Shown in pieces: positions 42,558 to 45,499 of a stretch of DNA of 64,000 nt; position 1 is the first letter of the stretch; each line of letters opens with the position of its first letter. The DNA comes from a candidate division WOR-3 bacterium. Lineage in GTDB: Bacteria; Hydrothermota; Tepidihabitantia; Tepidihabitantales; Tepidihabitantaceae. Under the pieces are notes generated by a model. That model did no database searches. It had not been told where the DNA came from and worked only from the letters and a program-made list of their open reading frames with translations. Location of the stretch: NCBI GenBank assembly GCA_013177935.1, contig JABLXZ010000003.1, positions 62,001-126,000 of the forward strand, in the 5' to 3' direction. Made by a program: the position numbers and the translations under genes.

Positions 42558-44456
42558 ATGCATTTTGTTGTTGGTACTGCTGGACATATTGACCATGGTA
42601 AAAGTGCACTGGTCAAGGCGTTGACCGGGACTGACCCGGATCGGTTGAAAGAGGAGCAGGAACGGGGAATGACAACCGATTTAGGGTTTGCCTTCTTGGG
42701 TGACGATATTACGATTATTGATGTCCCGGGACACGAGAAGTTTGTTCGGCATATGTTAGCCGGTGCCAGTACAATCGATTTGGTGATGCTGGTGGTGGCG
42801 GCAGATGACGGGGTAATGCCGCAAACCCGGGAGCATTTTGAGATTTGTCGGCTTTTAGGGATTAAAAAAGGGCTGGTGGTGCTTAACAAGATTGACCTGG
42901 TCGATGAAGATTGGCTCGAAATGGTGCGGCTGGATGTTGCGGAACTGGTGCGGGGTTCTTTTCTCGAAGGGGCACCGGTGGTTGCGGTTTCAGCCCGAAC
43001 CGGCGCAGGAATTGAGGAGTTGAAAAAAGTTCTGTATCAGGTGACCAAGACGGTTGAGCCCAAACCGGACCGGGGTGTTTTTCGGTTGCCGATAGACCGT
43101 TGTTTTACAATAAAAGGGTTTGGCACGGTGGTTGCAGGCACGGTGCTTTCCGGAACCTGTCGGGTTGGAGACCGGTTGGAACTTTTGCCCCAGGGTATAG
43201 AGGTGCGAGTCCGGGGAATTCAACGCCACAATAAACCGGTTGAATACACCGTGGTGGGCGAGCGTGCCGCTTTGAACCTTCAGGGGGTGGAGGTTGATAT
43301 GATTGTGCGTGGCAACATTCTATCAACTCCGGGTTATTATCGACCGACTACGGTGTTTAACGGTTCGTTTTATCTTTTGAAAGATGCGGGCAAACCGTTG
43401 CGTAATATGACGCGGGTTCATCTTCACATTGGAACTGCGGAGGTGATGTGCCGGGTGTGTCTTCTTGATAAGAAGGAGCTTCAGCCCGGTGAAGAGTGCC
43501 TGGTTCAGATTCGAACCGAGAGCCGGGTGGTGTGCGATTGGAACGACCACTATGTGATTCGGCACTACTCACCCCAGCAGACAATCGGGGGTGGTGTTGT
43601 GCTTGAGGCGCAGGGTAAAAAGGTGCGCCGGTTTGATGATGAGACATTGAGCAGATTGCAGGAGTTAAAGTCAGGTAAACGAGGTGCGGTTCTGGAGCAG
43701 TTTTTGATTAAGTCCGGGTTTGATGTAAAAACTATAGGAGCCATCTCCCGGGAACTGGCGCTAACCGAATCGGATGCTCAGCGGATGGCGGATTTTCTTG
43801 TTAAAGATGGTAAGGCGCGCTGGGTCGAATGGGAAGGGAAGAACTATTTGATACTTGAGCGAGTGATTGCTGATGGGTTAGAAAAAATTAAAGAGGTGTT
43901 AAGGGAGTATCATCAGGTAAACCCGCTTCGGGTCGGAATGAAACGGGCTGAGGCGCGAGTAAAGTTAGCACAGGCGCCCGCGTTGTTTGAGACCTTGGTC
44001 AGGATGCTAAAAGAGCAAGGTGTGGTGAGTGAAGAAGGGGACCGGTTGCGCCTCGCAACCCATCAGGTGAAATTAAACCCGCAGGAGCAGGCGATTTTTG
44101 AGCGGGTGGTACAGGCATTAAAACAGGCAAAATGGCAACCGCCTGATACCGATGAAGTTTTTGCCGGGATCGAGAAAAAACTTGCGGACCGGGTGAAAAC
44201 AGCACTGCTGGAAACCGGCGAGATTGTTGATATTGGCGAAGGAGTGCTTTTACATTCGGAAATGGTGGCGGAAGCGGAAAAAATATTGAAGGAGCTTTTT
44301 ATTAGGAAATCGGAACTGACCGCCTCGGAGTTCAGGCAGGCACTGGGTACAACCCGAAAGGTGGCGATTCCGCTTTTGAACTACTTTGACCGGACCGGTC
44401 TTACCCAGCGCCGTGGTGATATACGGGTGCTAAGGCAGAATAAAGAGCCAAAATAA
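42558..44456 (+). CDS. selB: Selenocysteine-specific elongation factor SelB
   Basis: SelB is the EF-Tu-like GTPase that brings Sec-tRNA to UGA codons and binds the SECIS hairpin. The G domain has [14 protein letters not shown], the SelB-specific [27 protein letters not shown] and NKIDL. Domains II-III follow, and the C-terminal half (about residues 370-632) holds the winged-helix domains that bind SECIS RNA ([36 protein letters not shown], with an RRGD element near the end). Length is 632 residues. selD starts 8 bp downstream and itself needs SelB. selA and selC are not in the window. Confidence 0.96.
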
Positions 44457-44464
44457 AGGAGTGT

Positions 44465-45499
44465 ATGGCAAAACGCGGAATACTGGCAACTGTTACCTGT
44501 GCCGGCTGAGCGTCGAAACTGAGTAAGGCGCAGTTGGCGCAGGCATTAGCCGGGCTGGAGCAGCCCGAGGACCCGAGACTTTTGGTTGGTATCAATACGG
44601 CAGATGATGCGGGGGTATTTCTTTTAACGGACGGGCTGGCGCTGGTGCAAACGGTTGACCTGTTGACACCGATGGTGGAGGACCCATACACCTTTGGCCG
44701 AATTGCGGCGGCAAACTCGCTTTCCGATGTTTATGCAATGGGCGGAGAACCCTTGACGGTGCTTAACATTGTGGGTTTCCCGGCGCCGCTGGACAAGACC
44801 ATTCTGCGAGAGATTTTAAGGGGTGGTCAGGATACGGTGAAACAGGCGGGAGCGGTTGTTGTTGGGGGCCATACCTTTAATGAGAAGGAGATAAAATACG
44901 GTCTGGCGGTAACCGGACGAATTGACCCGAAGCGGATTGTAACCAATGCCGGGGCAAAGTTAGGTGATGTTCTTGTGCTGACCAAACCGCTGGGTATCGG
45001 TGTCTATGCGCAGGCGGTGATGACGCTGGACCAGGTGGACCCGATTTTTGAGCAGGCGGCAAAGGATTCAATGATGCGGTTGAACCGGGATGCGGCGACG
45101 ATAATGGTTGCCTGTGAAGCGAGTGCGGCAACCGACATTACCGGTTATGGCCTTCTTGGCCATACCCAGGAGATGGCTGAGGCTTCGAGCGTGAGAATCA
45201 GGATTTATGCCGAGCGGGTGCCAGTTTTACCCCGGGCAAAAGAACTGGCGAAAACACTTATTGACCCGGGGGTTTTAATGAATGAGAATTCGTTTGGTAA
45301 GCAGGTGGAATGGAAAAGTCCGGTGCCTGACGAGATTAAAAATCTGCTCTGGGAGTCGGAAAGTTCGGGTGGACTTTTAGTGGCGTTAAAGCCAGAAAAG
45401 GTAGGGGTATTTCAGAGCCGGGCAAAAGAGGTCGGAATTATCGCACCGGTTATCGGCGAAGTTGTTCAGGGTCAACCCGGGACAATTGAAATAGTGTAA
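44465..45499 (+). CDS. selD: Selenide, water dikinase, itself a selenoprotein (Sec15 at TGA)
   Basis: SelD makes selenophosphate, the selenium donor for Sec-tRNA. Read from ATG 44465, the frame contains one in-frame TGA at 44507-44509 (codon 15) in the context TCAG-U-ASK. Cys12, Sec15 and Lys18 place Sec exactly where the catalytic Cys sits, three residues before the essential lysine. A SECIS-like hairpin follows immediately. After the TGA the 344-residue protein continues as a typical SelD (NTADDAGVFLLTDGLALVQT, YAMGGEPLTVLNIVGFP, VVGGHTFNEKEIKYGLAVTG, DITGYGLLGHTQEMA). A gene caller that stops at TGA would miss the first 23 residues. AAAGGAG precedes the ATG. Confidence 0.93.
44510..44540 (+). 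promoter_or_regulatory. Bacterial SECIS element of selD
   Basis: The stem-loop begins right after the UGA: GCGTC (44510-44514) pairs with GGCGC (44536-44540), a two-base bulge GA follows, then AACTG (44517-44521) pairs with CAGTT (44531-44535). The apical loop of nine bases (44522-44530) contains the GU expected for SelB recognition, 14-15 nt from the UGA. Size and spacing fit bacterial SECIS elements. Confidence 0.8.

Follow-up and report, generated by a model that had tools for sequence, protein, structure and literature searches.

Selenophosphate synthetases (SelD) that carry selenocysteine (Sec) in the active site form an established family, amounting to 19% of prokaryotic SelD (PMC4561486). 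Replacement of Sec by Cys in SelD has been mentioned before, and HdrA is a known selenoprotein family as well (PMC13188914). Bacterial SECIS elements vary widely (PMC12013277), and it has been proposed that SelD may keep the Sec trait going in organisms without FdhA (PMC1794560).

The selD gene described here (product, SelD1) lies in the window, i.e. the whole 64,000-nucleotide stretch of a candidate division WOR-3 genome that was analysed. Its predicted product belongs to the same family as the Sec-containing SelD of Aquifex aeolicus (2yye/2zod; TIGR00476, UxxK motif), with Sec at the same position and a putative SECIS element within the gene, after the UGA codon. Compared with Sec-containing SelD elsewhere, the WOR-3 SelD1 proteins have a predicted Sec that is invariant throughout one clade and a CxxU motif, and in the family of the window genome their genes lie directly behind selB. 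The Cys-type SelD of Escherichia coli (3u0o) is of the same fold family, but has Cys in place of Sec, no UGA codon and no SECIS. As selenoprotein SelD is known in other bacteria, a point that an earlier note made from this DNA alone had already mentioned, the window gene is an unusually well-supported addition to an established family. The more interesting part of the findings is a pair of Sec- and Cys-type SelD, together with an apparent relict SECIS.

The selD reading frame and conservation of codon 15

The features of the locus are listed in Table 1. From its ATG, the selD frame reaches an in-frame TGA at codon 15, as the earlier note had stated, and then remains open to the TAA at 45497-45499. 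The read-through product begins MAKRGILATVTCAG-U-ASKLSKAQLAQ... and scores 345.4 bits against the TIGR00476 profile (cut-off 125). The alignment with 3u0o matches residue 15 with Cys17 and Lys18 with Lys20, which bears out the proposal that the TGA occupies the catalytic Cys position in an arrangement of Cys12, Sec15 and Lys18. The Lys residue three positions past Sec completes a UxxK motif, which reads UASK in this protein and its relatives. The Cys residue three positions upstream of Sec (CxxU, 44498-44509) is present in 47/47 SelD1 and absent from the Cys-type SelD2 proteins checked; the Cys and Sec of SelD1 may pair as a selenenylsulfide.

Table 1. Features of the selB-selD locus, in positions of the window
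Feature	Position	Strand	Evidence
selB, Sec-specific elongation factor, 632 aa	42558..44456	+	TIGR00475; SelB winged-helix domains; selD neighbour
Ribosome-binding site AAGGAG of selD	44456..44461	+	Sequence
selD (SelD1), selenide, water dikinase, 344 aa with predicted Sec15	44465..45499	+	TIGR00476; alignment with E. coli SelD 3u0o and Aquifex SelD 2yye
Cys12 codon, CxxU motif	44498..44500	+	Cys in 47/47 SelD1
In-frame UGA (predicted Sec15), catalytic position equivalent to E. coli Cys17	44507..44509	+	TGA in 47/47 SelD1 orthologues; 3u0o alignment
Catalytic Lys18 codon, equivalent to E. coli Lys20	44516..44518	+	3u0o alignment; invariant in SelD1
Putative SECIS apical hairpin GCGC-AGUUG-GCGC, invariant G-U-U in loop	44528..44540	+	Covariation; synonymous constraint in codons 22-26
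TTG, apparent start for a caller stopping at the TGA; inside the SECIS loop	44534..44536	+	Open reading frame

The product of selB scores 383.5 bits against the TIGR00475 profile (cut-off 242.25), and the gene ends 8 bp before the selD ATG, exactly as noted earlier. selB adjoins selD in all 21 loci read from the family of the window genome, and the order lptB-rpoN-selB-selD is common to the window and its six nearest named relatives, all of them WOR-3 (65-72% protein identity). In two loci (L-numbers denote loci and G-numbers genomes, G000 being the genome of the window), L010:2196-3850 and L080, the SelB match is split into two abutting pieces, perhaps through a frameshift or an assembly error in that genome.

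SelD was searched for in 147 genomes of the phylum and found in 62; the catalytic codon was read for each locus and a tree was then computed. SelD1 forms one clade (support 100/99) that spans several families, and TGA stands at codon 15 in 47/47 orthologues, i.e. 45/45 full-length genes and two partial ones. The TGA might nevertheless be a genuine stop or a sequencing error, with a functional SelD made from the TTG at 44534 or with the gene decaying. A start at that TTG does give an open frame of 321 aa that still matches the AIRS domains; however, it removes both Sec15 and Lys18, and none of the SelD1 orthologues examined starts downstream of the TGA. Sequencing error or decay is untenable given the same TGA codon in 47 genes of several families, the conserved active-site residues upstream of it and the covarying hairpin behind it, and we consider this explanation extremely improbable. 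As the earlier note anticipated, standard gene callers would lose the first 23 residues and with them the active site, so that the selD annotation is corrected here across a whole uncultured lineage.

A covarying hairpin downstream of the UGA codon

RNAalifold, run unaided on the 47 sequences, returned a stem of 44528-44531 with 44537-44540 around the loop AGUUG. In this hairpin 94.6% of the cells are paired, compared with 86.9% in shuffled alignments, and 0/500 shuffles reached as high a value, although the shuffle control ignores the kinship of the sequences. All four pairs show compensatory changes with both sides altered, and sliding the partner strand by one to three columns brings pairing down to 6-46%. 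The compensated variants are GCAU-CGUUG-AUGC in L105, where two amino acids change as well, GCAC-AGUU(G/A)-GUGC in L120 and L131, UCGC-AGUUA-GCGA in L128, and ACGC-AGUUA-GCGU in L130 and L132. The G-U-U of the loop (44533-44535) is invariant in the 46 distinct SelD1 sequences. As exceptions, the outermost pair is broken in L098 and L100, and a register shift of one base is required in L121, L126, L091 and L096, the last two having GAGC-CAGUUG-GCUC.

Codon usage points the same way in an analysis that assumes no structure: codons 22-26 have the strongest synonymous conservation of the 304 five-codon windows in selD, and codon 23 is CAG in every sequence pair compared, against about 38% identity expected. 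The single-sequence fold of the window copy is unremarkable (z = -1.49). Rfam, which we did not rely on for bacterial SECIS, gave no SECIS match at its gathering threshold.

The earlier note had placed a SECIS directly after the TGA, and a hairpin does follow the TGA, at 44528-44540. The two-part stem that it drew, 44510-44514 with 44536-44540 and 44517-44521 with 44531-44535 (10 bp, nine-base loop), is not conserved: 80.2% of its cells are paired, against 79.4% in shuffles, and several of its pairs fail in between a quarter and two thirds of the sequences (up to 31/46).

The SelD1 element is a stem-loop that lies within the coding sequence, a short way past the UGA; it is more conserved than the protein requires and has G and U in its apical loop. 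In position, in the make-up of its loop and in constraint it agrees with a bacterial SECIS (bSECIS), and the gene thereby adds a candidate SECIS backed by compensatory base changes. The E. coli fdhF SECIS is a hairpin just after the UGA with G-U in its apical loop, and SelD1 is alike in these respects; it differs from fdhF and the bSECIS model in its short, 4-bp stem, its AGUUG loop and its lack of a conserved lower stem.

Selenocysteine machinery and a second selenoprotein gene

The earlier note had proposed a search for selA and selC, and both are present in the genome of the window, which is 98.6% complete: selA scores 567.6 bits, and selC (tRNA-Sec, anticodon UCA) 74.2 bits (cut-off 47). 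With selB, all the Sec machinery genes are there.

Some uncultured bacteria are known to have reassigned UGA, and the TGA of selD could then simply encode an amino acid such as Trp or Gly, as it would throughout the genome. In the stretches read from this genome, 94 open frames reach 300 codons or more; TGA and TAA terminate 39 each and TAG 16. Genome-wide reassignment is excluded in practice by these 39 TGA stops. In addition, no conserved gene in the same stretches was seen to have TGA in place of Trp or Gly, every in-frame TGA accepted here stands at a redox Cys position, in SelD or in HdrA, and tRNA-Sec, SelA and SelB are all encoded. We therefore give reassignment next to no credence.

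An HdrA-like gene is another UGA-containing gene of the kind that the earlier note suggested looking for. It lies at L162:7765-10314 (G000 C1:81764-84313), with its TGA at L162:8356 and a C-terminal FlpD/MvhD-like part. The TGA replaces the second Cys of a DCxxC motif (YPTMDCAI-U-ILAPK, CxxU) and is common to nine genomes of the window's family, including that of the window. Downstream of it lies a hairpin, GGAUGU-CGGUCG-(A/G)CAUCC, with GGU in the loop. This predicted Sec-containing HdrA is a second selenoprotein of the genome, and on finding it we dropped the idea of SelD as the sole selenoprotein, serving only its own synthesis. The other families searched gave no further candidates in the same genome: FdhA-type proteins (PF00384) gave no match over the cut-off, tRNA selenouridine synthase gave none, the FlpD/MvhD matches have no TGA, and a hydrogenase-like match is partial and without TGA. 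The GrdA search matched nothing in this genome, but no control genome gave a match either, so that GrdA may yet be encoded. The missing FdhA-type match fits the proposal of PMC1794560.

Read-through of UGA with a standard amino acid, aided by the hairpin, would resemble the non-Sec SPS1-UGA of Hymenoptera, and such read-through of SelD/SPS UGA without Sec has been described in insects (PMC4561486). Nevertheless, the complete Sec machinery, the constant adjacency of selB at family level, the additional Sec gene (HdrA) and the related SelD2 proteins, in which Sec alternates with Cys only, all speak against it, and we regard it as most unlikely.

TGA conservation, compensatory changes, synonymous constraint and the presence of selA, selB and selC uphold the earlier identification of selD as a selenoprotein gene. 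We are nearly certain that it encodes a Sec-containing selenophosphate synthetase whose UGA 15 is decoded as Sec through SelB and the GCGC-AGUUG-GCGC hairpin. SelB, made from the gene just upstream, would carry Sec-tRNA(Sec), the selC product charged through SelA, and bind the hairpin, whose loop starts 23 nt past the UGA, so that codon 15 would be read as Sec. In the predicted active site, Sec15 and Lys18, possibly with Cys12, would turn selenide and ATP into selenophosphate for Sec synthesis, that of SelD itself and of Sec-HdrA included. Selenium status might in this way feed back on the level of SelD.

A second SelD and a probable change from Sec to Cys

The genome of the window encodes a second SelD (SelD2, C2:440578-441588) with TGT (Cys) as its active-site codon. 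The gene heads a cluster at L106:9575-18057 (G000 C2:440575-449057), in which it is followed by genes for a corrinoid protein, two MtaA/CmuA-type methyltransferases, a RACo-type corrinoid activator, two double-cubane/HgdD-type proteins and a BadF-type ATPase. The cluster is complete in L107 and L108, and most of it is found in L112 and L115. Kountz and Balskus connected type 1 mlp clusters to methyl-selenide metabolism (PMC10418091). By gene content, the SelD2 locus resembles these clusters, the likeness extending to the corrinoid protein, the pair of MtaA/CmuA-type methyltransferases, the activator of RACo type and the homologues of double-cubane reductases. That article makes no mention of WOR-3, a SelD paralogue undergoing a Sec-to-Cys change did not come up in the text examined, and our literature search found no account of two selD genes with selenocysteine.

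The SelD2 clade is supported in the tree and has predicted Sec members both in sister genera (L112, L113, L114 and L115) and in other families (L131, L139, L142 and L144); across these relatives the catalytic residue alternates between Sec and Cys only. The simplest reading is that the ancestor of SelD2 had Sec, and that one or two changes to Cys occurred within the window's family. Sec-type members have hairpins of the type CUGAUGCAG-GUU-CUGCAUCAG, in which 8-9 of 9 pairs form; L139 is the exception, with 5. A first guess for this hairpin, GACCUG/CAGGUC, was replaced by the present one, which is better paired and has GU in its loop. The E. coli SECIS reads UGCAGGUCUGCA, and the SelD2 hairpin, UGCAGGUC(C)UGCA, is closely similar to it.

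Two loci with a Cys codon (TGC) retain the hairpin, L111:3228-3281 (G115 C140) intact (9/9 pairs) and L109:3354-3407 for the most part (7/9). The window's own genus and L110 have lost it (4-5/9 pairs). Judging from pairing, the hairpins of L111 and L109 are apparently relict SECIS elements left after a change from Sec to Cys, useless in L111, and the series would look like one recent and one older change. Together with the relict SECIS of a sister genome, such a Sec/Cys pair is relevant to how an enzyme whose synthesis depends on its own product may be replaced or started.

The earlier note had also raised autogenous control, in which a lack of selenium or SelB would leave SelD incomplete. This is plausible for SelD1 alone. 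All-or-none control is weakened by the Cys-type SelD2 of the same genome, which has no need for Sec decoding; as SelD2 should still be made in the window's genus, the cell as a whole would not be locked. The two enzymes might even share the labour, although we hold this only tentatively and think it rather unlikely. SelD2, beside a putative corrinoid methyl-selenide salvage cluster, would then yield selenophosphate without Sec decoding and (re)start the Sec system, and SelD1, its production translationally tied to SelB and selenium, would be the high-activity form when selenium is at hand. Members of the SelD2 lineage would form a natural series of Sec-to-Cys replacement: Sec and SECIS both present, then Cys beside a relict SECIS (L111), and finally Cys with the SECIS lost (the window's genus). 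Four sister genomes (G106, G110, G116 and G120) have two Sec-type copies and only Sec-type SelD was found in others, so a Cys-type copy is dispensable.

In G112, of the same genus as the window and assembled in 360 contigs, only the Cys-type SelD2 was found, yet Sec-HdrA is present. SelD1 is probably missing there through assembly gaps; a real loss, if true, would be a natural test of SelD2. At L131:1172-12857 (G072 C17), a stretch of 12 kb holds Sec-type SelD2, Sec-type SelD1 and a divergent homologue of SelB (36%). Lastly, in other families a SAM methyltransferase 69-92% like that near the window genome's SelD2 lies near SelD1 (L105:1504-4010, L093 and L103), with a corrinoid protein also near SelD1 in L105, a hint that selD and the corrinoid cluster have perhaps long been associated.
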